Below, piece after piece: positions 40,087-64,000 of a stretch of 64,000 nucleotides of DNA (its first letter is position 1; the number at the start of each line of letters is the position of its first letter). The position numbers were made by a program, and so were the translations under genes. The notes beneath the pieces are model-generated. The model was not told the DNA's origin, made no database searches, and saw nothing but the letters and a program-made list of their open reading frames with translations. Source of the DNA: Cornus controversa (lineage: Eukaryota > Streptophyta > Magnoliopsida > Cornales > Cornaceae); assembly GCA_026545225.1 (NCBI GenBank), contig CM048850.1, forward strand, positions 6,700,001 to 6,764,000, written 5' to 3'.

Positions 40087-40520
40087 TGTAATAACTGTAA
40101 TCATTTTTGTCCGATTATCCTTTATTTTCATTTATTGTCATATTAATACTTTAAATGATTATAGATTTGTTTCAAATGTAAAATACATGTTTAGAGAACT
40201 TATTTGAGGTTTGAAAAAGTTTTCGAAGCGTTTGGCAAAAGTTGACTTTTTCTGGTCCGATTGAGCCAAGATGCGGGCTCCGTGAGCCTAAAAAATCCGA
40301 AAGTGTCGGAATGACTTCAAATTTGGAGGGTAACTTAAATAAAATATTTAGGTCTACGGAATCGATTTCGTGTCAATCAAAATTATGAAACTCAGAAAAC
40401 GAGTCCAAAAAAGGTTGAGTGAAAAAGTAGTTAGATTTTTGTAAATAAGAGTAGGTTGGATTCTATAAATAGCAAGGGGAGAATTCAGCTCTTTATTCTC
40501 ATTCTCCCAGCAGCCGTGAG

Positions 40521-40566
<46 letters not shown>

Positions 40567-42635
40567 CAACATATTCTTCTTTCTTTCTCCATTGATTTTG
40601 AGGGACTTAGGTCCATAATTGGGGTTCACTGAAGAAGAGAGAAAATGGTCTATGCGTTGAGGGATCAAGGTTGATCAGTCCAGAATCAATTTCAGAAAAA
40701 GTTGGGTTTTGAGAGAATTGGGAAAATTTCATTTAGAAGCTCTTCCAAATTGAGGTAGGGATGCCTAACCTATAGAATCCGAAGTTTTTGTGAGTATATT
40801 GGTTGTTAAGGCAACCAATTGGTTATGTGGGATAATTAGATATTTTTCAATGATAAAACATACTTAATTACGCCAATTGATGAATTCATTATGCTAGATT
40901 GGATAATTTTATTATGAAGCAAATTGGGATTGAATTGTGAAAGAATTATGCAAATTCATGTATATTGTTAAGGTGATGCTTATATGTTTAATGAAATTCC
41001 TTGGAGTGTGTTTGAATGTGAAAGCATGCTCAATTATCAATGTAGATGATATGGAATATGTAAAGTGTAATGTATGATTTAATTGTCAATATAGAAATGA
41101 CATGAAATGTGGAAGATGTGAAATATGTTCAATGTGTATGCATGTGATGTTTAAATGAGAAATTGTATAAACATGATAATTGGATGTTCCCTTGACTTGA
41201 GTTACAAATTCACATTGGTATGAACATGTGGGGTGCATCATTGATGGTTTGGTGAGGGTGGTGAACTCAATTGGATTGAGAGCCCTCTTGAATTGGCATA
41301 GTATTTCATTATAAATCCATGTGAGACAATTCGGCTTTGGAACCCTGTGGAACGACCCTTAATTGAGGCGGACTAGAATGGAAAAGAATACTCCCTAAAA
41401 TGGAGTCCTCCGATAAGGTAAACTGGCTTTGGAACCTCGGTTAGGTGGGATTGGGTGGCCGGTAAAATTGAAACCCAAAAGATGTGTAGAGAGGATGAGG
41501 GAGTTGTGCATGTCATATCGTATTTACACGTTGTTTATGATATGGTTGTGATACATGAATATTTGCTTAACATGGTTAAATACAAGTGTATGTTTATGTG
41601 AAATTCAAGGAGTGTGCAAAATTGTGTTTTAAACATTCCTACTGAGCGTGTGGTTGCTCATCCCATGAAGATGAACTCTTTTTAGGAAATAGAAAAGAGG
41701 TGATGGAGTCTCCCTAATTGTGAATTGGTTCGGAGCGGAGTTAAGTCATTTAAACACCATATTATCACTTTATTTGAATGAATGTCTGGATTGTGGACTA
41801 TATGCATGTGAGAAACATGTATTGACCATTTGTGTTCGAGAACATGTATTAATTATATTTTATGATTGTATACGTTTAATTACGCTTTGAAGCATGAATT
41901 GTTTATAACTTATAATTTCATACATTGTAAGCATGGTCTCAAGTATGGTAGGATGCTAGACGTTTTAAATGATGAACTCTCATTTATGTTTATTTTCACA
42001 AATATAACTTGTGGGAAATGTTGTGTTGATGAAATGCATTTTATCAATGTCCAAGCATGTATGTATGTTTAATGGCAAAAGAAAGTGTATAAATATAAAA
42101 AATAATGCATAGAGTTGTCCCCTTAAGTTGAGGAGTTTGTGGAGGATGAATTAAGGTTTGAAAATAGTGAGAAACAGGTTCTAGAGAGTTTCAACTGGTT
42201 GAAACATCTATCAGCCGACTGAAATGGTGAGATACCGAACATTTGTATCTGTAGCGTCTGCAGGGACCTGTTTCGGTTGGTTGAAACAACCTTTCAGCTA
42301 ACCAAAAAGCCACTTTTAGCCAACCAAAGCTGGAGGGTAGCCAGCCGATGGATTGCCTAGGTTTCAGCCTAATAATGGGACATCCTTTAACCGACTGAAC
42401 CCTGATTGTGGGCTCATTATGTACTAATTTTGCTTAGAGGATTCATGGGTCCTACATAGGGACTCATTGTGAATAAAATTTAAGCTTCCATTTTGTTACA
42501 ACGATGACGATTGAGGGTTGAATCCAAGTATTCCATATAGGAGACTTGGGTAAGCTTAGAGAGTTGAAATTTAGGAATGTGGGTTTATGACTTAATCACA
42601 CTCAGTTTTCGGGAGTCAAAAATTGAGGCATGACA
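40087..42635 (+). repeat. Element B 5' LTR
   Basis: 2,549 bp. It differs from the 3' LTR by an extra stretch near its start (TAACTGTAATCATTTTTGTC) and a different microsatellite. It contains a promoter-like TCTATAAATAGC (about 40460-40471), a CATTCCTACTGAGC block (41634-41647), and a cluster of TTTCAGCCGACTGAAA-like words at 42184-42400. Confidence 0.88.
40525..40565. repeat. AT microsatellite inside element B 5' LTR
   Basis: About twenty TA dinucleotides just downstream of GTGAGGGACA. The equivalent site in the 3' LTR holds an AC run followed by an AT run. Confidence 0.95.
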
Positions 42636-43068
42636 GATTGGTATCAAAGCATAGCATGTTGTTAGAGTTTAATTGGGTTTGAATACCTAGGGATGATGTG
42701 TAATGGTTGAGTTACGTGTAGTTTCATGATTGGTTAGAACTTTGAGTTTGATAACCTAGAAACACGTGTACACATGACATAGTTAATATAAGAACTTATG
42801 TGCATGTGAAGTGTGCTTATATGATAATATGCTAAGTACTTATGTGATAACATGTATTATATATATGTGTTGAAATGAAAACATGATTATGTGATAACAT
42901 GAGTATATGTTATGGGTTAACTTAAAAACATATGTTTATGTGATTAAATATGTGTTGAGGAGCATGCTTATATGACACGTGAGAAAATGATAATATGTTG
43001 TTATGTTGTGAAGTTATTTGATCAGGTTGAAAATAAAAAATGTGATAACTTGTTGTGTTGTCCTATAT

Positions 43069-44030
43069 CTTGAATAGACAGAAATATACTACCTAGACGT
43101 CGAGGAGGGGGAATTAGGGGCGGAGTGCCCGAGGGAAACTATTTGGTCATTGATATGACCACGACCCTCCGTGTCTTTGTGAGAGCAGCTGCTAACGAGG
43201 TGCAACAACCGGTGGTGCAATCGAAAATGAATGAGGTTGAAAGGAGATTCAAATTCATCACTCGCTTTAAGAAGTTGATGCCTCCAAGCTTTGAGGATAG
43301 TTTGGATCCGTTGATAGTAGAAAATTGGTTGGAACAAGTGGAGAAGTACTTGAAAATGATGTCCACACCCGATATTGGCATGAAAGTCATTCTTGTTACC
43401 TATTTATTTTCGGGTGGAGTGGAACTTTGGTGAAAGTCGGTGAGTGACCGATATGATGTCGAGGCTATGCCATGGGAAGAGTTTAAGACTCTATTCCCTG
43501 AGCATTATTTTCCTAGGCCAAAGAGAAGGACTTTGAGGAAAGAGTTTGAAGATCTTGTTTATGATGGCATGACTATAACAGAGTATGAGAACAAGTTTAT
43601 TTCCCTTTCACACTTCGCACTCGAAGTAGTGAGAGATGGGAAGGAAAAGACGTGGAGGTTCATCAATGGCCTACACCATTTAGTTAGACCATTTGTATCC
43701 ATCTTGGGGTTGAAGGTATATGCCGAGGCGGTTGAGAAGGCCTTGATAACAGAAGTTGAAGTGAAAGATACGCAGGAGAAGAGAGAGACATTGAGGCAAA
43801 GCAAGGCCTTAATAATAGCTTCAGAGGGGCATGCAAAGAAGAAGTTCAAGGGTAGTTCTTCTCATACAATTGGTTCAATGGAACAGCCGATGGCACGTTC
43901 TACACCTACTATTCCCTTGTCCTTAGCATCTACTAGAGTGGAGGAGGTGTACTACAAGTGTAAGCAACCGGGGCACTACAAGTCAGATTGTCCTTCGAGA
44001 GCACCCATGAGAGCACCTTAAAGTCAGCTT
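43069..44030 (+). pseudogene. Element B gag with two zinc knuckles
   Basis: The frame opens PRRRGGGIRGGVPEGN at 43089; the expected start codon ATG is ATA at 43083-43085. Then come the gag core (VERRFKFITRFKKLMPPSFE, DPLIVENWLEQVEKYLKMMS), a stop at 43432-43434 where Trp is expected, RYDVEAMPWEEFKTLFPEHY, and VYDGMTITEYENKFISLSHF. The first knuckle reads YYKCKQPGHYKSDC, with Tyr for the first Cys. The second, just after a stop, is intact: CFSCGQQGHMRREC at about 44052-44093. Confidence 0.88.
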
Positions 44031-44299
44031 ATGGGGTAGCCTAGCACAATGACTTGCTTTAGTTGTGGGCAGCAGGGGCACATGAGGAGGGAGTGTCCTC
44101 AGCAGGGCAGAGATACTCGGGGTGGTCAGGGCTCACATTAGAGGTCGGCTCAGACCATTACTACACAATCGAGCTATAGAGCATTCTCTCCACCGTAGCC
44201 AGTTATATCTGCACAGAGTGCGAGACCAGTGAGGGGATTTACCCTTAGTGCATCCACATAGTAGTTAGTTTTTCAGTGGTTAGAGGTATATTTCTAGTG

Positions 44300-44779
44300 T
44301 ACAATTCTTGGGCACATATATTGATTGATTCATGTGCATCTTATTCATTTATTGCTACATCAATTTCATAGGCTTTGGGGCTTGAGGTTAGTCCTTTGGG
44401 TAAAATAGTTTGTGTTGATACGCTAGTGGGCGGTATAGTAATCCTCGACAAAGTGTGCCGGGAATGTGTTATTGAGATAGCCGAGAGGACACTTGAGTTT
44501 CATTTTATTCTCTTAGATATGAGTAATTTTAACATCATACTTGGGATGGATTGGATGTCGGAGTTTCATGCTACGATAGACTGTTTTAGAGGGAGGGTGA
44601 CGATTGGCACGCTTGAGGGTGATTGCTTTTATTTTGTGGGAGATTGGGGTAACTCCTATACTTCACTATGCTATGGCATTAGCAGTCGAGAGCGACACAA
44701 TTTTATCTTGGCTAGTCTTTTGATCGAGGGAGAGGAGATAGCAAGAGAGGTATACCCGACAGTAGTGTGTGAATTTTAG
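44300..44779 (+). pseudogene. Element B retropepsin-like protease
   Basis: The active-site block reads LIDSCASYSF (about 44322-44351), so the catalytic Asp-Ser-Gly has become Asp-Ser-Cys. The rest is typical: LGLEVSPLGKIVCVDTLVGG, LLDMSNFNIILGMDWMSEFH. One stop lies between the two parts. It would not be an active enzyme. Confidence 0.82.
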
Positions 44780-44796
44780 ATGTCTTTCTGGAGGAT

Positions 44797-46090
44797 TTGA
44801 CAGATTTACCTCCTAAGAGAGAGGTAGAGTTTGGGATTGATCTTATACTTGGTACGTCACCCATTTCTATGGTACCATATCGAACGGCACCAGCAGAGTT
44901 GGTAGAATTAAAGCGCCAATTGGATGATTTGAAAGCTAAAGGCTTTATTAGACCGAGTGCAGGGAGCACCAGTGTTGTTTCCTAAGAAGAAAGATGGTGC
45001 TTTGAGATTGTGCATTGATTATCGAAAGTTGAATCATGTGACAATCAAGAACAAGTATCCATTACCGAGGATAGATGATCTATTTGATCAATTGAAGGGA
45101 GCTTCCTACTTTTCAAAAATTGATTTAAGGATGAGGATATCCACAAAATGGCTTTCCATACGCAGTATGGGCACTATGAATTCCTTGTAATGCCATTCGG
45201 TTTGACTAATGCACCGGCAACATTTATGGATTTGATGAACCACACATTTTATGAGTACCTTGATACTTTTGTGGTAGTGTTTGTGGATGACATACTTGTG
45301 TACTTATCTTCGGAGGAGGAACATGAGTTACATTTGAAGACAAGTTTACAAATCCTTAGAGAGCACTGATTGTACGCTAAGTATGAGAAGTGCGAGTTTT
45401 GGCTCCAAGAGGTGAAATTCCTTGGATATGTTGTTTCTAGAGGTGGAGTATCAGTTGATCCATCTAAGATTGAGGTCGTAATGGGTTGGGAGAGTCCAAA
45501 GAGTCTTTTTGAGATTTGAAGTTTTCTGGTTTGGCTGGCCATTATAGAAGGTTTGTGAAAGATTTCTCTATTATTTCAGCACCAATGACACGAATCACTC
45601 GTAAGGGTGTAAAGTTTGTGTGGAATGAAGTATGTGAGTTAGCCTTTTGTGAATTGAAGAAACGGTTGATTACAACTCCTATTTTGGTATACCCGAGCAT
45701 GGCTTGGGGTATGCGATTTATTGTGATGTTTCGAGGAGCGGTCTAGGTTGCGTGTTGATGCAATGTGACGGAGTAGATGCTTATGGGTCTAGACAATTAA
45801 AGACTCACAAGCATAACTATCCTACGCATGACCTAAAGCTAGTAGTGATCTTTGCTTTGAAAGGGTGGAGACACTACTAGTATGGTGAGAGATTTGAGGT
45901 GTATTCGGATCACAGAAAGTCTCAAGTACCTTTTCTCCCAAAATGACTTGAATATGAGACAGAGGTGATGGGTTGAGTATATGGAGGATTACAATTTCAA
46001 TTTGCAATATCATCCGAGAAAGCAAATGTAGTGGTGGATGCATTAAGCATGAAGTCTCACGGGACTCTAGCTAGCATTGCCATTTTGGAA
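44797..46090 (+). pseudogene. Element B reverse transcriptase and RNase H
   Basis: Fingers and palm: [67 protein letters not shown], and the catalytic [12 protein letters not shown] (VDD at about 45283-45291). The thumb is FLGYVVSRGGVSVDPSKIEV. RNase H follows with HYRRFVKDFSIISAPMTRIT and decayed remnants to about 46090. A frameshift near 44960-44980 and several stops break it. Confidence 0.9.
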
Positions 46091-46299
46091 TAGAAAATGA
46101 TGGAAGATTTCTCAGAGTTAGGGTTGTGTTTCAGGGATGATAGTGGGCTAGCTACGTTGTTTAGCTTGATAGCTCAACCTATGCTTGTAAGCAAGGTGAT
46201 CGAGGCACAGAAGAGGGATAGTGTGTTGGAGTCTATTCGCTCACCGATTGTTGGTGGTATGATAGTGGTGGGTTGGACCTTGCATTCCGATGGGGGTCT

Positions 46300-47590
46300 A
46301 TGATTTAAAGGGTTAATAGTAGTTCCTTCTAATTGTTGTGATGACGTATTACGGGAATTCCATTATTCTCGTTTTGCAGTTCATCCTGGTGGCATCAAAA
46401 TGTACCATAATGTGAGACGCCAATATTGGTGGTGGGGTATGAATAAAGATATGGCATAGTTTGTGGCGAGATGCCTTACTTGTCAACAAGTAAAGACAGA
46501 ACATCAAAAGCTAGCTGGGTTATTGCAACCATTGCCAGTAGCAGAGTGGAAATGAGAACATATTACCATGGACTTGTGATGAGTCTTCCGAGATCAAACA
46601 AGGGTAATGATACGATTTGGGTTGTTGTGGATAGATTCACCAAAATAATTCACTTCTTGCCTATGAGGTTGAATGATGATGTGAGGAGGCTCAATAAGTA
46701 ATACGTAAAGTAGATTGTAAGATTACATGGGGTTCCAGTATCCATCGTATTGGATAGTGATCCACGGTTCACTTCGAGATTCTGGCAGGGATTCCAAACG
46801 GTTTTGGACACCGAGTTGCACTTTAGCATAACATTTCATCCTCAGACTGACGGACAATTAGAGCATACTATACAGATATTGGAGGATATGCTTCATGCTT
46901 GTATAATTGATTTTAGCGGTGGTTGGGAGGACCATTTGCCACTTGTGGAGTTTGCCTACAACAACAGTTATTAGTCTAGTATTGAGATGGCACCATTTGA
47001 GGCATTGTACGACAAACCTTATAGATCTCCAGTTTGTTGGATTGACGTGGGTGAGACCACAACCTTAGGGCCAGATATTGTGCATGAGACTATAGAAAAG
47101 ATTAAGTTGATTAGGCAGCGATTGTTGACAGTTTAGAGTTGACAAAAGAGCTATACCGATCGGAGGAGGAGACTGTTATCTTTTGAGGTGGGATACTATG
47201 TGTTTTTGAATGTTTCACCATAGAAATGATTGATGTGCATCAGATAGAGTGGCAAGTTGTCACCGAGATACATTGGACCATTTGAGATCTTTGAGTGTGT
47301 TGGTGAGGTGGCCTATAGAATGGCTTTGCCACCACAGTTGAAAAAGGTTCACAACGTATTCTATGTCTCGATGTTGAGGAAATATGAACTTGATTCATCA
47401 CATGTTCTAAGTTGGGTAGACGTTGAGTTCGATGAGGACTTCACCTATGAGGAGAGACTAGTTCAGATTCTTGATGCTAAAGAGTAAGTTCTGTGGGGTA
47501 ACATCATTCCTTTGGTCAAAACTTTGTGACATCATCACAATGTTGAGGAAGCTACTTGGGAACGAGAGTAGGAAGTTCATTCTAGGTATC
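46300..47590 (+). pseudogene. Element B integrase with Tekay-type C-terminus
   Basis: Zinc finger: HYSRFAVHPGGIKMYHNVRR and RCLTCQQVKTEH. Core: TIWVVVDRFTKIIHFLPMRL, SIVLDSDPRFTSRFWQGFQT, FHPQTDGQLEHTIQILEDML and VEFAYNNSY. C-terminus: GPFEIFECVGEVAYRMALPP, HNVFYVSMLRKYELDSSHVL, then a chromodomain-like NIIPLVKTL and HHNVEEATWERE. Stops are frequent. Chromodomains of this group guide integration towards heterochromatin (family knowledge). Confidence 0.88.
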
Positions 47591-47653
47591 CAAACTAGTT
47601 TCCTTCAGGTATGGCCTAATTTCAGGGACGAAATCCTTTTATGTTGGATAGGT

Positions 47654-48057
47654 TGTAAGAATTTTCCTTTATTTTCAATTATTGTCATATTAATACTTTA
47701 AATGATTATACATTTATTTTAAATGTAAAATACATGTTTAGAGAACTTATTTGAGGTTTGGGAAAGTTTCCGGATTCGGGTCCGGTTGACCTAGGATACG
47801 GGCCCAGTGGACCCAGAAAATTTGAAAGTGTCGAAATAACTTCAAATTAGGAGGGTAGCTTAAATTAAATAGTTGACGCACTACATAATCAATTTTGTAT
47901 CAATCGGAGTTACGAAACTCAGAAAACAAGTACGAGAAGAAGGTTTAGTAAAAATGTAGCGACATTTTTGTAAATAAGAATAGGTTAGATTCTATAAATA
48001 GCAAAGGGAGAATTCAGCTCTTCAATCTCATTCTCCCAGCAGCCATGAGGGACACAC

Positions 48058-48111
<54 letters not shown>

Positions 48112-50162
48112 ACATCTTCTTCTTCCTTTCTCTATTGATTTTGAGAGACTTAGGTCCATAATTAGAGTTCACTGAAGAAGAAAGAAACGTTCTATATGTC
48201 GAGGGCTTGAGTTTGATTGGTCCAGAATCAATTTCAAAGAAAGTTGGGTTTGGAGAGAATTGGGAAAAATTCATTTGAAAGCTTTTCCAAATTGAGGTAG
48301 GGATGCCTAATTCATAGAATTTAGGATTTTTGTGAGTATATTGGTTGTTAAGTCAACCAATTGGTTATGTGAGATAATTAGATATTTTTCAAAGGTAAGG
48401 CATGCTTAATTATGCCAATTGATGAATTCATTATGCTAGATTGGATAATTTTATGTTCATAATTGCCATAGTTAATTATGAAGCAAGTTGGGATTGAATT
48501 GGGAAAGAATTATGCAAATTCATGTATATTGTGAAGGTGATGCTTATATATTTGATGAAATGCCTTGGAGTGTGTTTGAATGTGAAAGTATGCTCAATTG
48601 TCAATGTAGATGATATAGAATGTGCAAAGTGTAATGTATAATTTAATTGTCAATATAGAAATGACATGAAATGTGGAAAATGTGAAATATGTTCAATGTG
48701 TATGCATGTGATGTTTAAATATGAAATTGTATAAACATGATAATTGGATGTTCCATTGACTTGAGTTGCAAATGCACATTGGTATGAACATGTGGGGTGC
48801 ATCATTGATGGTTTGGTGAGGGTGGTGAGCTCAATTGGGTTGAGAGCCCTCTTAAGGTGGCATAATATTTCATTATAAATCCATGTGGGGTAATCCGGCT
48901 TTGGAACCCTGTAAAGTGATCCTTAATTGGGGTTCTGGACTAGAATAGAAGAGAATACTCCCTAAAATGAAGTCTTTCGATGAGGTAAACTGGCTTTGCA
49001 TCCTTGGTTAGGTGGGATTAAGCGGCCTATAAAATCGAAATCCAATGGATGTGTGGAGAGGATGAGGGAATCGTGCATATCATATCGCATTTACACGTTG
49101 ATTATGATATGATTGTGATATATGGATATTTGCTTAACATGATTAAATGCAAATGTATGTTTATGTGATATTCACGAAACTTACGAAATTGTGTTTTATA
49201 TATTCCTACTGAGTGTATGATTTCTTATCCCATAAGGATTAACTCTTTTCAGGAAATGGAAAAGAGGTGATAGAGTCTCCCCAATTGTGAATTGGTGTGT
49301 AGCGGAGTTGATTCGTTTAAAAACCTTATTATCACTTTATTTGAATGTATATCCGAATTGTGTACTATATGCATGTGACAAACATGTAATGACCATTTTT
49401 TGTTTGAGAACATGTATTAATTATGCATTATGGTTATATACGTTTAATTACGTTTTGAAGCATGAATTGTTTATGACTTATAATTTCATACATTGTAAGC
49501 ATTGTATCAAGTATGTTTATTTCCACATATATAACTTGTGAGAAATGTTGTGTTGATGAATTGCATTTTATCAATGTCTAAGCATGCATGTATGTTTAAT
49601 GGCAAAAAAAAATGTATAAATGCATAAAATAATGCATAGACTTGTCCCATTGAGTTGAGGAGTTTGTGGAGGATAAATTAAGGTTTTAAAACAGTGAAAA
49701 ACATGTTCTGGAGAGTTTCAACCGGTTGAAACATCCATCAGTCGACCAAAATGGTGAGATACCGAACATTTGCATATGTAAAATTTGTAGAGACCTGTTT
49801 CAATCAGTCGAAATAGCCCTTCAGCCGACCGAAAAGTCTCTTTTAGCTGACCGAAGCTAGAAGGTAGCCAGCTGATGGATTGCCCATGTTTCAGCTTGCT
49901 GATGGGACATCATTCAACTGACCAAACCCTAATTGTGGGCTCATTATGTACTGATTTTGCTTAGAGGCTTTATGGGTCCTACATAGGGACTCATGGTGAA
50001 TAAAATTTAAGCTTTCGGTGTGTTATGACGATAACGATTGAGGGTTGAATCCAAGTATTCCATGTAAGAGACTTGGGTAAGCTTAGAGAGTTGAAATTTA
50101 GGAATGTTGGTTTATGACTTAATCAACCTCGATTTTTGGGAGTCGAAAATCGGGGTGTGACA
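47654..50162 (+). repeat. Element B 3' LTR
   Basis: 2,509 bp, starts TGTAAGAATTTTCC and ends GGTGTGACA. It is colinear with the 5' LTR. The word cluster (49720-49920) is conserved in position, although individual words differ. Confidence 0.88.
48052..48109. repeat. AC then AT microsatellite inside element B 3' LTR
   Basis: An (AC)n run passes through TACATA into an (AT)n run. Same site as 40525-40565 in the other LTR. Confidence 0.95.
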
Positions 50163-51250
50163 AATATACTATGTTTTATATGTGTCTAATGTGCACGTAT
50201 ACATGTATATATCAAAGAATTGTCCAAGTGACCCATACATGGGGTTTGGAGTTACCCAACCATGTTATGGAAGTGGTGAAATTACCCACTAAAAGTATGA
50301 CCGTTGGAGTTATCTAATCATACTAAGGCTAATGCCTAGAAATCAGAGTTGTCCAAAAATCTTGTGACCGTCGGAGTTGTCCACTCACAATGGCAAAACC
50401 AATATATTGTCGGGAATGTATGATTCTTCGGAGTTGTCCAAATCATACGGGTGTCTTCACAGTTGTCCAACACCACATGATTGTCGTAGTTGACCAATCA
50501 TGTCTATGTATCATATTATGACCGAAAAATATGTAAATATCATGATGATTATGTGTTTAACTATTAAGCATAGTGAATGGATTAAATGCATACATGTTGA
50601 ATTGCATTTGCATTAATTTGACATGAGAACATTGAATATGCCATGTAGAATAGCGTTATCGTTATTGCACATCATGTAGGTTGGTGTCGGGTCAATGCCT
50701 AGGTGGGTTGGGGCATTCCTACTGAGCTTGTTGTTTTGCTCACCCCTCTCCCCCAAACTTCTTTACTGATAAGACACCAGTGGTGGACGGAACTTGAATA
50801 GCTAGGTGGAGTTCCTTGTAGCACTTTTGAGATATTTTGAATGTTGTAGATATTGTTATCCATGTCTACTTATGGCATATTGATTTTTGAATCCTCTTAT
50901 GTAAACCATGTGAACAATTTATGAATTTGGAGAAATGTACGAGTAGAACATATGTTTTGGATTCAATGAATGAAATGTATGATTTTAAAGCATTTCATTT
51001 ATGTTTCAATGTTACATGAGTGAAATGAGGATAGAGAACATATTTTTAGGTGAATAAGGTATGTGGTTGAGCAAATGAGAATTCTACAGAATTTGCAGTC
51101 GAGTGATTATGATGCATCGAAATCCCCATGATGCATCAAAAATGCCACGACGATGTATCGTAATAATGTTGAGGAATTGGGTTGAAAATCAGCACATTTC
51201 GCAGGATATAGCGATACATCTACAATGCATCGTAAATTACGATACATCAT
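50163..51250 (+). mobile_element. Element A 3' LTR, second part
   Basis: It resumes directly after element B. It contains a hairpin array (50237-50503), then GGGGCATTCCTACTGAGC (about 50710-50727) with GCTCACCCC, a block shared with the LTRs of element B, and a cluster of GATGCATCG/CGATGTATCG words at 51108-51248. The right border is unclear because element C begins at 51251. Total LTR A would be about 2.07 kb. Confidence 0.65.
50237..50503. repeat. Array of hairpins with similar 17-nt loops and variable stems
   Basis: Six clear units: stems 50237-50242/50260-50265, 50294-50300/50318-50324, 50362-50367/50385-50390, 50418-50424/50442-50448, 50450-50453/50471-50474 and 50475-50480/50498-50503. 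Each encloses exactly 17 nt resembling CCGTCGGAGTTGTCCAA. The stem words are ACATGG, AGTATGA, TTGTGA, GTATGAT, GGTG and ACATGA, and every one pairs perfectly with its partner. Two decayed units lie at about 50272-50290 and 50334-50362. The last three units are contiguous or one base apart. The function is unknown; in LTR RNA they could fold as stem-loops. Confidence 0.85.
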
Positions 51251-51719
51251 TGTGGGGGAAAATATTTCCACCAATAAAAGAGGTACACTTATACAGAAGA
51301 AAAGTCAAATATTTTATATGGCATGGTCCAAGTCAGTAAAAGGGAAAGATATGTGGCAACACACGTGGTAAAGGCTCAGCAACTTGTCTCCCAAGTCAAC
51401 AAGAGTTTATTGGAAATAAAATTAGAAAAGAAAAGCAGAATCCTACACACAAAGGAGGACAAATCCAACTGAAACTAGGAGTTCATTGTGTATAAATATA
51501 AGACTTAGGGCAATAGGAAGGGTATCAAGAAATATACGAGCTCGTATCTCTATAATACCTGGAAAAGAATATAAAAACGTATCCTCTCATCTATGGATGT
51601 AGGCCGAATTATGCCAAACTATATAAATCTCGTGTGTCATTATTCTTGCATTTATTTTCTTGAGTGTTCTTTATTCATCATTTGTTTGACTTTTTATTTG
51701 GCAATTTTTTACACCAACA
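51251..51719 (+). repeat. Element C 5' LTR
   Basis: 469 bp from TGTGGGGGAAAATATTTCC to ACACCAACA. It has a TATA region (GTATAAATATAAG at about 51489-51501). The internal start CTTTGGCACCGTCTGTGGG follows immediately and serves as the primer-binding-site region. Confidence 0.78.
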
Positions 51720-51779
51720 CTTTGGCACCGTCTGTGGGAAGCGTTCTATTATTTTTCATTGAAAACTTGAAAAATTCGT

Positions 51780-53124
51780 AGTTATTGTGGATACGAGAAG
51801 GAATACTTATGACTTGGCAGATTTGGACAAACCCCTTAAAAATCAAAGGGAGGCACCGTCGATACATGCAAACCTCCAGGAGCCTCTGGCGCAGCCAAAC
51901 GTTCAACAATTAACCCAATAGATCGCTAACCTCCAAGCAAGGGTAGAATGCGTCGAAAGCACGAGAGACCATGGACGACAACGAAACGAATGAGCCGATT
52001 CGAGTAACCACTTATTGAGTGTGTCTCATCACAACCAACCTGTAGGTGGAGATCCACACCTTAGCCATGTCAGTATATATCAGATCAATCCCACATAGTT
52101 CTACCCGGAATGAGGAACCCAGATGCTGTGGGAGATTGATGAACTAAAGGGTAAAAGATCCTACTGTCTAGCCAACCGAGCATTTGTAGCTAGTAGGCTA
52201 ATTGAGTCCCCATTCACAAAAAATATAGTCAGGATCGAAAGGCCAATAGGGTTTACCCCACCTATGTTCGTTACCTTCGAACGAAGAACAGATCTTGTTG
52301 AGCACATCTATTAGTATCAGCAGAAGATGACCCTAGATGCGGAGAACAATGCACTGATGTGCAAAATCTTTCCATCCAGTCTGTTAGGACCAGCGTTGCT
52401 ATCGTTTAAACATCAACCGCCTCGCTCGATCTCGAACTTCGCAAGGCTATGTGAGTTATTCGTCACTCAATACGCTAGAAATCAAGAACGAAGGAGGACA
52501 ATCTCCTCGTTATTCACCATGAGATAGGTTAATGGAGATTTGAAATCCTTTTTGACCCATTTCAATTAGGAGATGTCAATGATAGACCAATACGATCAAA
52601 CTGCGACAGTAGAAGCCTTTAAAATAGTAGTGCTACTTGAGGAAGGTTTTCACAAATCTTTGGTAAAAAGTGTTCTAAGATATATGGGTGATCAAAACTT
52701 TCGGGCTTAGAAGTACAAAAGGATAGAGGAGGATGAAGCTGCCAAGAAACAACGATCAACTTTAATTACTGTGGGACAATAAACAAAGAGCCAGATCGCT
52801 AAGGTGAAGCCACCCAGAGCCGTTCCTTCATCCACTCAAAAACTAGCGAAAAAGCAAAGGGTTGAAGGAAAGATTATCCCACTAAAGGTATCTCTAGCCA
52901 GGTTTTATTATGAGAACAAAAATAAGGGGATCTTCCATTTGCCTCCGGCTATTAGGCAACCCCTAAAACAAATGGATAAGAACAAGTATTGCTTGCTCCA
53001 CAGTGACTTTAGTCGTACTACTAATGAGTGTAGAAGTTTAAGGCAATATGTAGAGGCTCTGATCGCCAAAGGGGGCTTATCAGAATATGTCCTTCGAGAA
53101 GAGCAAGCCAAACTGTCTGATTAG
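51780..53124 (+). pseudogene. Element C gag
   Basis: Broken N-terminal part, then a retrotransposon gag core: ANRAFVASRLIESPFTKNIV, MTLDAENNALMCKIFPSSLL, NFARLCELFVTQYARNQERR. Further on FHLPPAIRQPLKQMDKNKYC and CRSLRQYVEALIAKGGLSEY match the C-terminal gag block of Tat/Athila elements (usual form KYCxxHxxxGHxTxxCxxL), here with DFSRTTNEC in place of the Gly-His. Stops interrupt it at several points. Confidence 0.82.
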
Positions 53125-53454
53125 CCTCAATCGAAGCTGAACAGACAACAGAACCCTACTCCAATTTGGGTCATTAATGCTATTCATGGTCAACTGGCAT
53201 CAAATCGAGAAAGCAAATCTAAAATGCAGTCACACCTAAGGAGTGCCTAGAAGGTCCAAAGAATTTGAGAGGTTCACTCAGTGCATAACCACTCAGTTAT
53301 GGTCTCGATCGTCTTCATAAATAAAGATATGAGCAAGATCCAAACACCCCACAAAGACCCCTCTGGTGATCAGTTTCATCATATCCAATTGTGAAGTAAA
53401 AAGAGTCCTGGTTAATGCAAGGAACAGTGCAAATGTTCTAACCTTATAGGCTTT

Positions 53455-53672
53455 CCAACAGATGGGCCTAGAGGTAGAACGTATCAAGCCAACCGCTGAG
53501 CCACTGGTAGGGTTCGATGGAAGACAGGTCATCCCAACTGGTGTAGTAGAACTCCTAGTGACAGCAGCAGCCAGAACCTTGACTGAATCTTTTGTTATTG
53601 TCGATTTCAACTCTTCATACAATATGATAATGGGAAGAGGTTAGATACACAAAATGTAAGGGATTATGTTGT
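53455..53672 (+). pseudogene. Element C protease fragment, cut by element D
   Basis: Encodes PLVGFDGRQVIPTGVVELLV and FVIVDFNSSYNMIMGRG, the C-terminal half of the Tat-type retropepsin (usual form YNxIxGRxxL). A stop stands where Trp or Pro is expected. The frame is lost at about 53667-53672, where LTR sequence of element D starts. Confidence 0.8.
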
Positions 53673-55074
53673 GTGCGTAAATTTGTAATTTATATTTACC
53701 ACTCGCAATAGAATGAATCCTTGAAGGATAGGGCTCTAAATTGAGGGTATTGATCCCATTGAGACTAGGAATAATTCGCTAAAAGTCGAAGGTTGGTTCT
53801 CGTTTAAATCACAACCACGTGTTGGGTTGTTTGCTTACTCTACTTCAAAAGAATAAATGATAATTAAAATGTGGAGTTGAGAGAAGAGTAAAGGACTAGG
53901 GTTTAGACTCCACCACTAGCCTCGTAATATGTCAAACTTATAATAAATTGGGAGAATTCATGCAATTATGTACTAAGGGGTGCAAATGGCTTGTGGCCTA
54001 CATTGCTACAGTCAAGAGGATACATGCACCTTAAAATACTATAATTCATCTTCGATACGTGTAAATTCCCTACCTACCTACTTACATAGATACCTAATTA
54101 ACTAAGTGCAGCTAATTTACCATCTCTTAGCATAGACTATGCAAATCTAGCTATACATGTTAAAGTGAAAACTAGTACCAAGCCATCACGTGTAGTCCTT
54201 GTGGAACTACAAGTGTTTGAAGATTATGTGAGGAAAACAAGCATTCTAAGAAAAGAAAGATAAATTACACACATGAACATAAGGAATTTGTAAACTTATA
54301 TTACTTATAAAGCTCAAGGCAAAGTATATATACACAAAAATTATATAAAACCCCCAATTCACTAAAGTTAGAACATATTTACAAGACTAGGGTTTTTCAA
54401 AACCTTAGAGAAGGATTAGTTGATCATGGTGGGCTGGAAGCACTCCATAGACAGAGATGAATCCATGCTCAAAACGGTCTTCAAGGCCTTACAAAGCCTT
54501 CTTTGAAGCTTTCCCTCTCTATAACTTCACTTTCTCTCTCTAGAATTTGTTATACGCTCTCTATTACAAGAATTGTGATATATCTATCTATTATATATTT
54601 CTTAGCTATATATTTGATTTGAGGCTCAAAAGATCACTGAATTTTCGTCCAAGGCATCTTCTAGAAGAAATTAGACAAGTGGCCAAGTGGAGAAAATATA
54701 TTCCAAATAATATCTTCTGCAGAAATTTGCAATGGATTGAAGTGGGTACTTCAATGCATTGAAGCTTCGATCCATCGAAGCTGTCACTTCGATCCATCAA
54801 AGTTCCTAACTCTGCAGTCTTTCAACTCTTCAACTTTTCGACTCCGGTCTTAACACGCCATTCAATATTCCTTGATATAAACCTTCAATGAAGTACAATC
54901 AGATATATGAATGCATTCTTGACTTAATAAAGGAGTCGCATTACGCCGAAAATATACTTTGAGCCTTAAATCATCAAAAACATAAAAACACGTAGAAACT
55001 ATACAATATGTGCATCTATGGGATTAAAATTCATAAGTAAATGCGTGATAATGTATAACATTCAACACTTATCA
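53668..55074 (-). repeat. Element D 3' LTR
   Basis: Begins TGATAAGTGTTGAATGTTAT (minus strand) and ends near AAATTTACGCACACAACA. It contains TTCGATCCATCGAAG-type palindromic words at about 54764-54803. It is placed as an LTR from the adjacent purine tract and its TG...CA ends. There is no second copy to confirm it. Confidence 0.55.
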
Positions 55075-56989
55075 CACCCCCAAGATTAGATATTGCTAGT
55101 CCCTTAGCAATACGAAAAGAATTAAAATAAAGCAACTACTCTACTTCCGCTTTCGTGGTAAACGCGTCTGCATTTAGCGAATATAACAAGCTTTTTAAAC
55201 CCCTAGACAAGTCTATTGGATGAGTGAAGTCTCATTGGGTTTAACACGCTTGTTAAACTCACAAAAATATGCAAAAAAAAATGGTGGTTTGCTTAGTCAT
55301 CAACTAGAAAAGAGTGATACCCCAATTGATGTTCAAAATGGCAAATACAACAAGTATTATGGAGCTATATGGATATCAATAGATATAAACCATTAGAAAT
55401 TAGAATTAGGCAACAGTCCCAACATAACAGTCAGTCTGATACTCATACAAGTGCAAACCTTAAAATCTTCTTTGAAAGGTGAACATACAATTTAATGCGT
55501 GGTTTATAATCGTTTATGGAGAATAAATAGAACATTTGCATTTAAAAGAAGAACTTTTTGAAACAAATCACAGAAACATACCATTAGCTGAAGAAATATT
55601 TACAAACACTTAAGTACAACCAACTATGCAATGCCTAAGTCCATTAAGCTTTTTAGCAAGCCTATATAGCAAAGTTAGATCAATGACTCCCAAATAGGAC
55701 GATTTTAGGGTATTAGGTGAAAAGGCACCCTTCAGACTTAATAGCCGAGCTCACTAGGCTACGAACTTAAATGAGTCAATTGTTTCTTTATTGCTCAACC
55801 TTACGCACTTTTAAACATGAACACTCTATGCTTCCTGAGGCATAGAGGCCCGCTTTATTGAGTGAGAAGGTTTATTGCCAATTTTGTTTTTTTTTTTTTT
55901 TATAAACTTGCTAAGGCAACTTGTTCTTCAAGCTGTTTAAGTAAAAACAACATTTTCAAAATTCTCCATATGACCTATTCCCCACAATTCAATGTATGTG
56001 TGTGTGTTGTGCCATTAAGGACAAATTTAGGGGGAAGAACTGTACAATATTCAAAGATTGAACAAAATGCAGACCATTATAACCTAACACATAATTTTTA
56101 AAAGTTCGAGTATTTTCGGATGCCAAAGCTCCTAACTACAAGATGCATTTATTAATGACGTTCTAGGTATTACATTCTTAAAAGAAAGACATCATGACAA
56201 ACATGAAATAAAGATGCAATATGTGCAAAAATTTAAAAGCAAATAGTTTATGCAAATGTACCATAACCCCAAACTTAAATTAAACATTGTCCTCAATGTT
56301 TGAACTAAAAAGAGTTAGAACAATGTTACCGGCTAGTTGATAGGTCTCAAAAAATAAAACATCAACTGTGTAAGGGTAGTGGGTACACACCTACGCAGGT
56401 ACATATCAAACATGTGGGGCATCAAAACCTACACAAGTATAACATACATACCAACATAACATACATGAACTGGAAAAGACAATAAAAAAACTAAAAGGAA
56501 AGTACAACAGAAAATAAATATGGAAAGTGCAATATTCCATTAATTTGACTCATTGTAAATACAAGTGATGGAATTATAGAATACACCAAAAATATGCTTT
56601 AAAAGTAACAAAAGAGTGCCTACATGGCACTGTACAGTTCAATGACTGAAAAATAAAAAAAAATACATAACTGAAATAGAAACAGTAACAAAATAGGAAA
56701 CTGGAACTAAGTCTGAGGTGGTGGCGACGCAGAAGTAGAAGCAAAATCTGTGCTAAGGGAGCCCAAGGTCATCCTAAGCAACTGCTCTATGCGTTGCTGA
56801 CCCTCGAACAAACTAATCATACCCTCACTGAGGGTGCTAAGGAAATCATTGGTCTTGCGACGATGGTCTGCAAAATCCAACTATACCTGCTGCAGACCTG
56901 TACTAAGGCACTCGTACCCGGTGGCCAGATAATCATAGTCCTCTCAGCTTATGCATGGCCTATCCTAGCCCACTTCCTCCTCCTCATTC
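55075..56989 (-). other. Element D non-coding internal region
   Basis: About 1.9 kb without significant frames on either strand, AT-rich, with an A/T run near 55884-55899. Long non-coding internal stretches are usual in LARD/TR-GAG elements. It ends at the purine tract and LTR on the left. Confidence 0.5.
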
Positions 56990-57888
56990 ATATCCATATC
57001 ATCCCTCTTAGACAATTTATGAGCACTCTCACTCTCCTCAATCTCAAGCGCTACGCGCGGGAGAGTACTCATGTGAGAGACGATCTTGGTCCAACTCTAG
57101 AACTTGAAGTGGGGAGGAACGTCAATTGATAACTCAGAAGGTACAAAGTAAAAGTGTGCTCGTCAAAGCAGAACAATCACTAAGAATGGGAATGGCAACT
57201 TCATCTTAGCCACTCTCAAATAGTTTTTATCCACTATCTGCTCCCACAATTTAAACATTTATCCCCAGATAACAGTCGGGACAAAGAACCAACATCCAGA
57301 ATGAAGGGCGTATAAAACTATCAAGAACTCGCCCCATCGATCGGTATGATGCCTAAGAGGATGGGCATTTTTCTCGAAGACAGTGTCAAAGAACCACAAT
57401 CTCTGGGGGCACAAGGATTTGCTAGTGCAGGTGTTCTGAGGGGGATTTGAGAAATGGCCATGGCACATGCCTTGAATCATATCAAAAATAGAAAGGTTTG
57501 GATCGAGATCATGGAACCAGGAATTCTCCTATGCTATATAAAGATCCTCGGGTTCCTCATGCGGACACCCGGTGAGAGTAGCAATGTCCTATATTGTGAC
57601 GGCAAGAGCAGTGCCATCAACAGTAGTCTGTAAGATATCCAGCTCATCGGGGCTGTAAGTCAAGTTCATGTAAAACGCTTGACCAAGCCGAGGGTAGTAA
57701 AGATTAGTTGCAGGAACAAGGAGCCCAAGTAAATGGCGCTCATGCAAATCTATGAAGAACCATGAGGCATAAGGATCCTCGATAAATACGTCGATGTCAA
57801 CCATGTGCTCGAGGTGGAAATTCCGCTGCTCCCAATGGCACCATGGGATATCGCAAATGGATGCGAGTGGCACCTCATCACCGGCCAT
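56990..57888 (-). pseudogene. Element D gag-like protein (plant transposon protein domain type)
   Basis: It starts MAGDEVPLASICDIPWCHWE at 57888. LVPATNLYYPRLGQAFYMNL and TVDGTALAV match the block found in many plant ORFs labelled 'putative plant transposon protein' (Pfam PF20167, from memory). A frame change follows, then FFDTVFEKNAHPLRHHTDRW and LYALHSGCWFFVPTVIWG, then an acidic tail (DDMDMNEEEE, about 57000). Such proteins occur in non-autonomous LTR elements. The frame is broken at least twice. Confidence 0.6.
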
Positions 57889-58263
57889 ATCGTGTCTGGT
57901 AGCCGCTAATTTGGCTCACAAATCTCTTGTAAAAAATCCAAATCAACCTCAAACTTTCTCCCAAATATGTCTCAATACTCCACCTAGTTCAACCCACCAC
58001 AAGTATTTCCCAACCCTCCTCTAAAAATCTGAGATAAATAGGATACCCTCAATCCACAATTGGCGAATATAATTTCAAAATGCCCAACAAAAACCTCTTA
58101 CCTTCAATTTTGGGTTGGAGCCAAATAAGGTTGTCTACGCACAGAATCATCCTCCTTGAACTTGAGAATGAAGATGGAAGATGATGATTGTGATGATGTT
58201 GGCGATGGATGGTGATGGAGGTGTGTTCGAGACTTCCAGACGAGAGGGAAAGAAGAGAGAGTC

Positions 58264-58290
58264 ACTAGAGAGAGAGAGAGAGAGAGAGAG
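58264..58290. repeat. AG microsatellite
   Basis: About thirteen AG dinucleotides in the leader-like region upstream (minus strand) of the element D gag. Confidence 0.95.
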
Positions 58291-58474
58291 GAAAATGAGA
58301 GGGAAAGAAGAGAGATTCAAATTTTAAGTGACTGTGTGTGCAGTCACGTGCCCAGGCTCGATGCATCGAAGTGGGTACTTCAATGCATCAAAGTGTGTCA
58401 ATGGATCGAACTAGAGGTTTCGATGCATCGAAGTGTCGATGCATCAAACATCTATCGAAATAAGGTGCGAAAGC

Positions 58475-59100
58475 TGCTGAAATTTGAATGAAATTATAGC
58501 AGTAAAGGTAGATCAGCTTCTCGAGGCTGGTTTTATCAGGGAAGTACAATTCCTAGATTGGCTCTCCAATGTAATAGTGGTGCAGAAAATGAATGGCAAG
58601 TGGCGAATCTATATAGATTTCACTAACTTGAACAAAGCTTGCCCCAATGATAGTTTTCCTCTTTCAAAGATTGATCAAATGGTTAATGTCATAACTGGGT
58701 ACTAACGATTGACATTTATCAATGCATACTCTGGATACATTCAAATTCTGATGAATCCAGACAATCAAGAAAAAATCTCATTTATCATCGAGAAGGGAAT
58801 TTACTGCTATAAGGTGATGTCGTTCGGACTGAAGAACGCCGGTGCAACTTACTAGCGTTTGATCAATAAAGTTTTCAAAAACCTGATAGGCCGAACAATC
58901 GAAGCATACATAGATGATATGGTGGTAAAAAACCTTAGAAAGAAAGATCACGTGAAGCATCAGTAGGACGTTTTTGACATTTTACGGAACCATAACATGA
59001 GTTGAACCCTTCGAAGTGTTCCTTCGGGGTTTCTTCAAGGCAATTCTTAGGGTACATAGTTAAAAAAATGGGAAGAGAAGCAACTCTGGTTTAGATGAAA
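58475..59100 (+). pseudogene. Element C reverse transcriptase
   Basis: The frame resumes with VKVDQLLEAGFIREVQFLDW, VVQKMNGKWRIYIDFTNLNK and ACPNDSFPLSKIDQMV, the Tat pattern. The palm follows, FINAYSGYIQILMNP and YKVMSFGLKNAGATY, and the catalytic AYIDDMVVK (about 58904-58930). The upstream 250-300 residues between protease and this point are missing or replaced by element D. There are stops at the GY and GATY positions. Confidence 0.88.
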
Positions 59101-59199
59101 GCTCTTCTTCAGAACAAGGAACCAAAATCTCATAGGGAAGCTCAGATCCTAACAGGACGCATTGTTGCTTTGAGTAGATTCATCTCTCGACTTTCTGAT

Positions 59200-60100
59200 A
59201 AGTGGAGGCCTTTTCTAATGCCATTATAACAAGGGGCATAGGAGTGTGGGGAGTTGAACAGAATGAGGCCTTGGCGAATCTCAAGTAGTACTTGATTCAA
59301 TTACCAATGCTTTTAGTGCCAAATGCAGGGGAGCCTTTATACTTGTACCTTGCAATATCTCGAATAGCCACAAATGTAGTTCTAATAAGAGAGCTCGACA
59401 AAAAGTAACACCTAGTGTTCTACTCAAGACCATGACTGAGGCCAAACAGAGATACTCAAAAGTTGAGAAGATCATACTGGCCCTAGTCCAAGCAAAGAGG
59501 AAACTGAGACATTACTTTCAGGCTAACCCAATTATTGTCCTGACCAAATCTTCGATCAGAGCGATTCTCCATAAACCTGATCAGTTAAGAAGAGTAACCA
59601 AATGGACAATTAAATTGGGAGCCTACGACGTAACTTATGAGCCTCGAACCACAATCAAAGGGAAAGCGATGATCGATTTTCTACTTGAGTATGAGGCAGA
59701 GAATGATGAAGAGCCAAAAATTTTAACTCAACCTAAATGGAAGCTCTATGTCGATGGGTCATCTACACAGATAGGATCGGGCGTCGTTGTAAAATTTGGA
59801 CTTATAATGGAACTGCTTTATTACAAGCAATTCATCTAGAGTTTCCTGCATCAAACAATGAAGCTAAGTACAAACCCTTGTTAGCAGGACTAAGGCTAGC
59901 AAAAACACTATAGGTAAAAAATTTGCAAGTTTTTAGTGATTCTCAACTAATCGTGAAACAGGTTAGTGGAGATTAGTTTCCAAAAGATGACTGCATAAAA
60001 GCTTACAAAGACTTGGTAGAAAGAGAGCTTAGAGAATTCGACCAACCAAGTCAAGGTTTCTCAAATCCTAAGGGACCAAAACTTGGAAGCTGACAAGATA
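59200..60100 (+). pseudogene. Element C RNase H and second (archaeal-type) RNase H remnant
   Basis: The connection/RNase H region reads EAKQRYSKVEKIILALVQAK, RHYFQANPIIVLTKSSIRAI, RRVTKWTIKLGAYDVTYEPR. It is followed by a second module, PKWKLYVDGSSTQIGSGVVV, with DGS as in the additional RNase H of Tat elements, then NEAKYKPLLAGLRLAKTL and VFSDSQLIVKQVSGD. Both are interrupted by stops after 59839. Confidence 0.82.
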
Positions 60101-60312
60101 GCGTGTTCGGCTTCAACAGGATGGCCAGACCTAACTAGGATAGTACCGATTGACACTTTGCAAGAGCTCATCATTCTTATCCAAAAAGAAGTGTTGGTTT
60201 TGTAGAACAAACCCAGTTGGATGGATCTTATAAAGGCTTATTTCATCAATAGAATATTACAACATCAAAAGAAGAAACAAATAAGGTCAGAATAAATTCA
60301 GCAAGATATTCG

Positions 60313-61450
60313 GTGATCGACGAACATCTTTACAAAAGATTATTCTCAGGGTCGTACCTAAGATGTGTTGCACCGTTAGAAGCAAAAAAAATACTCTCTA
60401 GAATTCACGAAAGCATATGCGCAAATCATTCACGAGGGCGATCGCTGGTTCATAAGGCCATTACCCAAGGGTATTTCTGGTCATACATGGCTCGAGACAC
60501 TGAAGAGCATACTAGAAGATATGACAAATGCGAGCGACATACAAGGATACCCCATCAGCAACTCGAAGATCTAACCACAATGGCCAGCCTTTGGCCATTC
60601 GTGAAGTGGGGAATGGATTCAGTTAGACTGCTCCCTAAAGCTGCCAATAACAAGAAGTACGTCATGTTGGCCACCGACTATTTCACAAAGTGGGTTGAGG
60701 CAAAAGCCTATGCTACAATGACTCACGTTCAAGTAAAAAGTTCATATGTAGCAACATTATCTGTCGATTCAGCTTGTCAAAATCTATCATCAAGGATAAT
60801 GCCAAAAACTTTGATAATCGACTGATAAAGTTCTTCAAAGAATATGGGATCAACCAGAAATTCTCCTCAAGATCATATCTACAAGGGAACGACCAAGCGA
60901 AAATAACCAATAGGACTATCTTTGAATGCATTCGAAAGAAGTTGAAAGCCTAAAAGGGCAAATGGCTGGATGAACTTCCCAAAGTGCTTTGGGCCTATCG
61001 AACGGCGCCCAGACAACCGACCAAAGAAAGTCCATTCTGTCTGGCCTATGAATCTGAAGCAGTGATACTAACCTAGCTTTCGACCCCAACAATCAGATCA
61101 GAAGTGCTAAAGAGGGGGAAGAACGATCAACTATAGAACATAACCTAGATCTCCTGGAAGAAAAGAGGGAGGTAGTTGAGATCAGGTTGGTGTCATATCA
61201 AAAGATGGTCAAAAATAGTTATGATAAAAAGGTGAAACACCGAGCATTTGGTTTGGGAGACTGGGTGCTAAGGAAAGTCACTAACAATCCAAAAGAACTT
61301 AATGCTAAAAAGTTTAGAGCAAATTGGAAGGTCCATATGAAGTTATAAAAGTAATTGAAAATGGTACATATAAGCTTTGCAAAGTTAGTGACGTAGAGTT
61401 AATTTGCAAACCTTGGAATTCAACCCATTTGCGAAAGTACTACGTTTGAA
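60313..61450 (+). pseudogene. Element C integrase
   Basis: Zinc-finger region: HESICANHSRGRSLVHKAIT and YDKCERHTR, where the first Cys of the CxxC pair is Tyr. Core: PFVKWGMDSVRLLPKAANNK, YFTKWVEAKAYATMTHVQVK and, after frameshifts, the NRTIFECIRKKL-like and [20 protein letters not shown] blocks. The C-terminal part ends in a CKPWNSTHLRKYYV-like stretch near 61445. Frameshifts near 60780 and 61070. Confidence 0.88.
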
Positions 61451-63480: not shown

Positions 63481-64000
63481 AAAGCTAAGGCCTTAGGTTC
63501 CAATGACTTACAAAAAATTCGTCTTGCCAAAGGAGGCTTATCGCAACAAGACAAAGAAGCTAAACGCCGTAAAAAATAAAAACTGCAAATAGCGTAGGAA
63601 GTTGATAACTTGATAAGATAACAACTACCCAAAATAAAATTTCATCGCCAAACAGAAAAATAAGGGGCTGAAAAACCAAAGGGGTGATGAAAGGCACTCA
63701 CCAACAAAGTGGGGCAAGAATGAGTCACATCAACAACAAAAAAATACTAAAGTGGGGAAAATAAGCGAAAGACGGATCATCGATCGAATGGCCAATAGTT
63801 GATGAAGGTTGAACACCACCGTGACATCAATCAACAACAAAACCACTGTAGCTGAACAAAATTAATAAATCCGATAAAGGAACAGACAAAAAAAAAAAAG
63901 CTTCAGAAGAGCCATGTCATTACATTCCCATGGAGGTCAAGCTAAGCAAGCAAAGTCTTCTAACATCCGAAATAGAAATCTAAAAATTGTCACTTCATTA
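63481..64000 (+). other. Element C 3' non-coding region continued
   Basis: A-rich non-coding sequence with scattered ATCGATCG words (about 63778-63787). No second LTR is reached before the window ends. Confidence 0.55.

Follow-up and report, generated by a model that had tools for sequence, protein, structure and literature searches.

A tandem array of conserved-core dyad units with unit-specific arms in the LTR of a Ty3-type retrotransposon of Cornus controversa

Organization of the locus

The analysed window is a 64,000-nucleotide stretch of the Cornus controversa genome (assembly GCA_026545225.1, contig CM048850.1, forward-strand positions 6,700,001 to 6,764,000), in which an array of short hairpins lies within the LTR of a retrotransposon, element A, whose LTR is in turn split by a nested retrotransposon, element B (Table 1). 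Profile searches of the 3' part of element A pol returned RT_RNaseH above its cut-off, Integrase_H2C2 at 20.2 bits (under the cut-off of 25.5) and Chromo at 18.4 bits (E 0.0021, under the curated cut-off of 25.1), and the RNaseH, integrase and chromodomain matches all precede the LTR start at 39100. We take this domain order to be that of Tekay/Del-like Ty3 chromoviruses. In larger copies, the array-bearing LTR begins TGTAGAGA and ends GTGACA, reaching a length of about 2.46 kb in copy L051, where the terminus GGGGCGTGACA is followed by an iMet-type PBS TTGGTATCAGAGC; L050 and L053 are similar. This pairing of LTR end and PBS signal was not found in L048, L049, L052 or L054, the last of which has a damaged form of it. 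Two features by which Tekay/Del-like Ty3 chromoviruses are recognized were found: an LTR of TG...CA form with an iMet-type PBS behind it, and RNaseH, integrase and a C-terminal chromodomain directly before the 3' LTR, two of these domains being under cut-off. Judged by its domain order and sequence style, the array-bearing LTR belongs to a putative Tekay/Del-like Ty3 chromovirus.

The two pieces of the element A LTR align with L048 in a nearly seamless way, the left alignment ending at its position 4544 and the right one resuming at 4541, so that they overlap at 4541-4544. Given this continuity, together with the similar 5-bp flanks of element B (TATAT at 40082-40086 and AATAT at 50163-50167), which are a slightly decayed target-site duplication, we conclude that the LTR of element A was the insertion target of element B. 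Its insertion point lies about 70 bp from the array. Element B carries a Gag with a CCHC knuckle, as identified by profile search, and its two LTRs are 84% identical. This LTR pair (40087-42635 and 47654-50162) was considered as the carrier of the array and rejected: the core cluster is absent from element B, where core-like sites are merely scattered, and the array sits in the LTR of element A, bearing out its initial placement within an LTR. Both element B LTRs have, at the matching place, an AT microsatellite some 40 bp long (40525-40565 and 48070-48109).

In L048, L053, L054 and the window LTR a TATA-like box, TTATAAATAT, lies at about 370-381, and there is a corresponding box, CTATAAATA, at 341 and 376 in the element B LTRs; the pattern had no match in L051 or L052. 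In the LTR coordinates of three copies the array starts at about 1045-1180, roughly 0.7 kb 3' of the box. This downstream position suggests that the array probably lies in the transcribed part of the LTR, as leader RNA.

Several further features were observed around the two elements. At the left end of 51251-64000 a Tat-type element seems, by our own reading, to start, with an LTR start TGTGGGGGAA and a PBS-like sequence CTTTGGCACCGTCTGTGGGAA at about 51720; this region contains RNaseH and integrase matches (59267-60822) and a tandem array with a 96-106 bp unit (62409-63483), which is probably part of the same element. Elsewhere in the window are a large imperfect inverted repeat (21396-22019, 71% identical to its own reverse complement) and a 448-aa open frame with a DUF4283 domain on the minus strand (28660-30006).

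Table 1. Coordinates of element A, element B and the hairpin array in the window
Feature	Position	Strand	Basis
Element A pol, 3' part (RNaseH, integrase, chromodomain-like), with stop codons	36875-39052	+	Repeat with 45438-47769; profile matches; translation
Element A LTR, first piece; starts TGTAGAGATC	39100-40086	+	Letters; aligned with L048 as far as 4544
TATA-like box, about 380 nt into element A LTR	39478-39485	+	Pattern match
Nested Ty3 element B, relative of A, inside A's LTR; LTRs about 40087-42635 and 47654-50162	40087-50162	+	Ends, PBS
Element A LTR, second piece, with array; ended by Tat-like element	50163-51248	+	Homologous to L051 5886-7023 and six further long copies
Unit H1: 10-pair stem CCATACATGG/CCATG(T)TATGG, one bulged T, 17-nt core	50233-50270	+	Fold reading
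Hairpin H1b, without core: AGTGG/CCACT	50272-50290	+	
Unit H2: AGTATGA/TCATACT, 17-nt core	50294-50324	+	
Small hairpin H2b: AGGC/GCCT; missing in L084-like subfamily	50326-50337	+	
H3: core-like copy with poor arms; excluded from pair tests	50340-50356	+	
Unit H4: TTGTGA/TCACAA, 17-nt core	50362-50390	+	
Hairpin H4b, without core: TGGCAA/TTGTCG in window	50391-50412	+	
Unit H5: GTATGAT/ATCATAC, 17-nt core	50418-50448	+	
Unit H6: GGTG(T)/(A)CACC; other subfamilies AGTGT/ACACT	50450-50474	+	
Unit H7: ACATGA(T)/(A)TCATGT	50475-50503	+	
Downstream hairpin H8, without core; one pair lost in window copy	50546-50570	+	
Conserved block; letters ATTCCTACTGAG also in both element B LTRs (near 41635 and 49202)	50700-50820	+	Own reading of letters

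Architecture of the array in the window copy

Six units, each with a 17-nt core between perfect arms, span 50237-50503 (perfect-arm limits 50237-50265, 50294-50324, 50362-50390, 50418-50448, 50450-50474 and 50475-50503), exactly as the initial annotation had described them from the letters. With the spacer fixed at 17 and arms of at least 5, five such repeats were observed, a number reached in none of 5000 dinucleotide shuffles (mean 0.32, maximum 4); with arms of at least 4, seven were observed, one of them an overlapping extra, and two of the 5000 shuffles reached this count. When any spacer from 3 to 40 was allowed and the best taken, the largest of 500 shuffles (mean 1.9) equalled the count of 5 in the sequence. 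In inverted-repeat density at any spacing the array is unexceptional, the same value being reached by 13 of 1417 window blocks. The cores of units 5-7 have T and A as their outermost letters, which could themselves pair, so that the spacing of these units can also be read as 15. The hairpins between and after the units (H1b, H2b, H4b and H8) are weaker and lack the core.

The arms of the window copy pair specifically within their own units. When the right arms were dealt to the left arms in all 720 ways, the native arrangement paired 35 of 36 positions and was the unique best (mean 14.3). Of the six inner arm positions, five show two to four Watson-Crick types across the units of the window copy without a mismatch, the exception being position 6, where unit H6 is mismatched. 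The arms had been reported as different words in every unit, but the words are related, ATGA or CATG occurring within the arms of four of the six units, as expected for diverged tandem copies. The ACATGG arm assigned to unit 1 is present, but the true stem is longer, comprising 10 pairs with a bulged T.

Copies, subfamilies and unit gain and loss

Searching the 772 Mb source genome with the array query gave 2340 first-look candidates, of which the 40 that were scored had 85-100% identity; a pattern requiring two exact cores matched 37 times in the genome, and its reversed control not at all. From the array query and further queries, 106 distinct copies were aligned. Three with partial arrays (L055, L062 and L078) were dropped before the tests, leaving 103 of the 106, and exclusion of H3 and of one unpaired H2 column pair left 63 stem pairs to be tested. 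The copies fall into window-type, L070-like, L084-like (lacking units 2b and 3) and L060-like subfamilies. In L052 a tandem repeat whose period is about 78 bp (6301-6865) lies immediately beyond the end of the LTR copy.

Decay and the changes described below aside, the stem word of each unit is broadly constant across the 106 copies. This runs against the idea that stems are freely rewritten, since each unit keeps its word in about 100 copies and the words are interrelated. The claim that the arms always pair holds for the window copy, but the inner stem is perfect in only 31 (unit 4) to 53 (unit 2) of the 103 copies, 35 of which have gaps in unit 5. By a loose count there are 4 to 9 core-like sites per copy, with 7 in 36 of the 106; in nine of the 106, six of these sites have perfect dyad arms of 4 bp or more. 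Units are gained and lost: extra units were read by eye in six copies (L055, L075, L076, L078, L074 and L080), and one unit is missing from L130. Taken with the related arm words, this gain and loss leads us to conclude that the array arose by tandem duplication; its units, about seven in number and each about 28 bp long, belong to a many-copy LTR family.

Outside the source genome, a two-core scan of IMG/VR gave a single match (L132 12334-12514), where a tandem repeat includes the core letters but has no detectable similarity to the array, and Rfam returned no matches at E up to 1 for positions 49000-52000.

Pairing and covariation across copies

Within-unit pairing extends to the other copies. 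Among 55 register-stable copies, the native dealing of arms was best in all 55 and uniquely best in 40; with fixed columns, it was uniquely best in 49 of the 103 copies, 48 of the 103 being gapped within a unit. Partners slid out of register pair in 0.16-0.30 of cells. Since each of the six control sets likewise exceeded its null, the paired fraction itself (0.838, against a tree null of 0.762) is uninformative and was not used as evidence.

Covariation is seen at individual pairs. Four of the 63 stem pairs show two Watson-Crick types with at least 10 copies each, both sides switching together between G-C and A-T (A-T 68/G-C 16, A-T 68/G-C 13, G-C 59/A-T 11 and G-C 53/A-T 30). The number of two-type pairs expected in 63 is 0.66 from non-stem controls (11 of 1056) and 0.51 from 249 wrong partners, an excess with a Poisson P of 0.005 that assumes independent pairs, though two of the four share one stem. 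At lower thresholds the excess narrows, from 4 against 1.1 expected at 8 copies to 6 against 3.4 at 5 copies. Ten stem pairs are polymorphic on both sides, and phi exceeds 0.4 in three of them (the other seven lie below), compared with 6.9% of 175 controls.

Over all 63 pairs on the tree there were 24 same-branch double changes against a null mean of 18.9, a non-significant result reached in 27 of 200 nulls, and a G test on column pairs gave p <0.02 in 2 of 63 pairs, about the level of chance. When only clades of at least 3 were considered, 3 double changes were found against 0.67 expected (reached in 4 of 200), with one of the six control sets also giving 3. Judged by whether the arms covary and the stems keep pairing in other copies, the outcome is mixed: four of the 63 pairs covary and 84% of stem cells still pair across the 103 copies, but the tree test of the whole structure is not significant.

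The way in which stems changed can be followed in unit 1, whose variants differ by subfamily as ATA/TAT, GTA/TAC and GTG/CAC. At some places the arms have changed in step since duplication, one pair at a time. Several changes are such single-pair steps via G.T or A.C, which disfavours the earlier suggestion that template switching rewrites both arms together.

Constraint in replicating lineages

In the tree of the 103 copies, we treated changes on internal branches as having occurred during lineage replication and those on terminal branches as mostly post-insertion; parsimony ties were broken at random, so that counts differ by a few between runs. C>T and G>A together made up slightly more than half of the changes reconstructed over the column classes used here (1752 of 3198). 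Stems are depleted in internal changes relative to columns outside hairpins. For transversions the internal/terminal counts were 23/181 in stems and 83/258 outside hairpins (Fisher P 0.0002), for all changes 154/767 and 246/789 (P 0.0001), and for C>T plus G>A alone 93/454 and 100/368 (P 0.08). The whole 17-nt cores were not significantly depleted (203/779, P 0.10). Within them, the segment GAGTTGnCC (48/322) is depleted when set against the 5' portion of these loops (130/388; P 9e-6), a contrast that was picked once the per-position counts had been seen.

Comparison with the flanks was less straightforward. In 39 copies picked by array similarity, internal/terminal counts were 149/712 for the array, 398/861 for the upstream 300 columns and 251/846 for the downstream 300. 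Seven copies picked by the downstream block do not show higher conservation of the array, which has a mean identity of 0.775 against 0.831 for the block, and in three of the seven part of the array is missing or replaced. The proposition that the array is more conserved than its flanks was accordingly set aside as partly an effect of ascertainment, and for this reason only contrasts within the array are relied on here.

Folding and strand

In all six core units, mean folding energies (103 copies; 102 for H6) lie below those of shuffled sequences on both strands. The summed unit energy is -36.6 against -24.5 kcal/mol for shuffles on the plus strand and -44.2 against -24.3 kcal/mol on the minus strand, and for five of the six core units the mean energy is the lower of the two on the minus strand. 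The array of the window folds with z values of -1.72 (plus) and -3.06 (minus). Sliding folds of three LTR copies found the array ordinary on the plus strand, and that of L049 reached a z of -3.5 on the minus strand. RNAalifold on the 106 decayed copies gave -0.07 kcal/mol for plus and -5.3 kcal/mol for minus. Elsewhere in the L049 LTR, a region near the 3' end (2101-2320) has plus-strand z values of -5.2 and -6.8, far stronger than the array.

Mismatches offer a second view of strand. Clade-level losses of pairing comprise 14 to G.T, 13 to A.C and 8 to other mismatches, and in single cells G.T occurs 430 and A.C 327 times, as raw counts uncorrected for sequence context. The folding strand is thus left unmarked.

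Interpretation of the array

A conserved loop core on stems that drift but stay paired usually marks a stem-loop that a protein reads. As the array combines a conserved core with stems that drift and still pair, we rank first, though tentatively, the reading in which it is a set of tandemly duplicated, selected stem-loops in the leader RNA of the element, read by a protein. Each unit would form a stem-loop in that leader RNA; its stem letters would drift pair by pair, with pairing alone being required, and its loop would present GAGUUGnCC to the protein. The most plausible reader would be Gag of the element itself, through its CCHC zinc knuckle and in packaging, or else a host RNA-binding protein; element B in the window has such a knuckle in its Gag. 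The presence of several units could provide avidity. The RNA stem-loops first proposed for this array thus gain from its position downstream of the TATA-like box, from the constraint on stem columns and from the four covarying pairs, but draw nothing significant from the whole-structure tree test. Should selection for pairing be confirmed, the leader RNA (or cDNA) of a plant Ty3 element would contain a repeated structural signal. The 2340 first-look candidates in the genome make structure tests over many lineages look feasible.

We consider it possible, if somewhat unlikely, that the array represents an undescribed class of LTR feature, a conserved-core stem-loop array with unit-specific stems that would serve as a multivalent docking site in leader RNA, or else in first-strand cDNA or antisense RNA, the latter two being considered on account of the better folding of the minus strand. 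Among the titles and abstract openings covered by our literature search, which included few subscription journals, no description of conserved-loop hairpin arrays in LTRs was found.

With the folding strand unmarked, a role at the level of DNA is retained as an alternative. On this account the units would be double-stranded protein-binding sites (GAGTTGnCC with dyad arms) that regulate the LTR promoter or chromatin, a role also proposed for Sirevirus palindrome arrays. This would suit the lack of a clear strand preference in clade-level changes and minus-strand folds that are equal or better. Cis-regulatory regions of transposable elements are often arrays of repeats, sometimes palindromic (PMC10760457, PMC2829016), but the repeats of Sireviruses lie 5' of their TATA box and the present array 3' of its TATA-like box. 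Arms that vary between units are, moreover, unexpected for a dimeric DNA-binding site, and we judge this explanation unlikely.

The leader-RNA reading has also to be weighed against the absence of any present function, in which case a palindromic unit was duplicated and its arms stayed alike through template switching, hairpin-templated repair or incomplete decay. Units do duplicate and delete, as the six copies with extra units and the loss in L130 attest, and the tree test of the whole structure is compatible with chance. Two observations nevertheless make this account improbable: the subfamily changes include single-pair steps with mismatch intermediates, as in the unit 1 series, rather than multi-base rewrites, and in replicating lineages both the stems and GAGTTGnCC show constraint when compared with the columns beside them. 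For an ordinary Dicer substrate, a stem of 4-10 pairs looks too short, and silencing would leave the constraint unexplained, which renders it very improbable that the hairpins give rise to small RNAs for host recognition of the element and are retained only as a by-product. An excess of small RNAs at clusters of palindromic motifs in maize Sireviruses, as recounted in a passage on Bousios et al. 2016 (PMC10760457), is the precedent for that proposal. The ranking accordingly keeps the protein-read stem-loops of the leader RNA in first place.

Comparison with known systems

RNA elements with a conserved loop and variable stems, such as packaging and regulatory stem-loops, are bound by proteins. 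The array shares with them fixed loop letters, stems free to vary as long as they pair, and the presence of several units in a putative leader RNA, but they are protein-bound elements, whereas the array is a putative RNA element whose folding strand is unmarked. Because element B inserted so close to the array, the insertion preference of plant LTR retrotransposons for palindromes also deserves mention; it is a weak effect at target sites (PMC6911290). It has palindromes and LTR elements in common with the present case, but concerns target sites and not an array internal to the element.

The closest parallel is provided by the RM boxes in the LTRs of Sireviruses, which are Ty1/copia elements. 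These are clustered, dyad-symmetric units of proposed regulatory role, with conserved CGG-CCG arms, situated within CpG islands and 5' of the TATA box (PMC2829016), and Sirevirus palindromic motifs have been discussed in connection with small RNAs in two further papers (PMC10760457; PMC5311732). The assertion in the initial annotation that no LTR feature of this type is known was therefore too strong, as palindrome arrays have been described in Sireviruses, albeit with the opposite pattern of conservation. RM boxes resemble the array in being many short dyad units clustered in a plant LTR. They differ in that RM boxes keep their arms, whereas the array conserves its core and has different arms in each unit, with no shared CGG-CCG; in that they lie upstream of the TATA box, whereas here the box is at about 380 and the array downstream, at about 1045-1180 in the LTR; and in their Ty1/copia affiliation, element A being Ty3-type by its domain order and chromodomain. 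In view of the retained core, the differing arms and the downstream placement, the array is not of the Sirevirus RM kind, but is rather a variation on repeated palindromes as an LTR feature.
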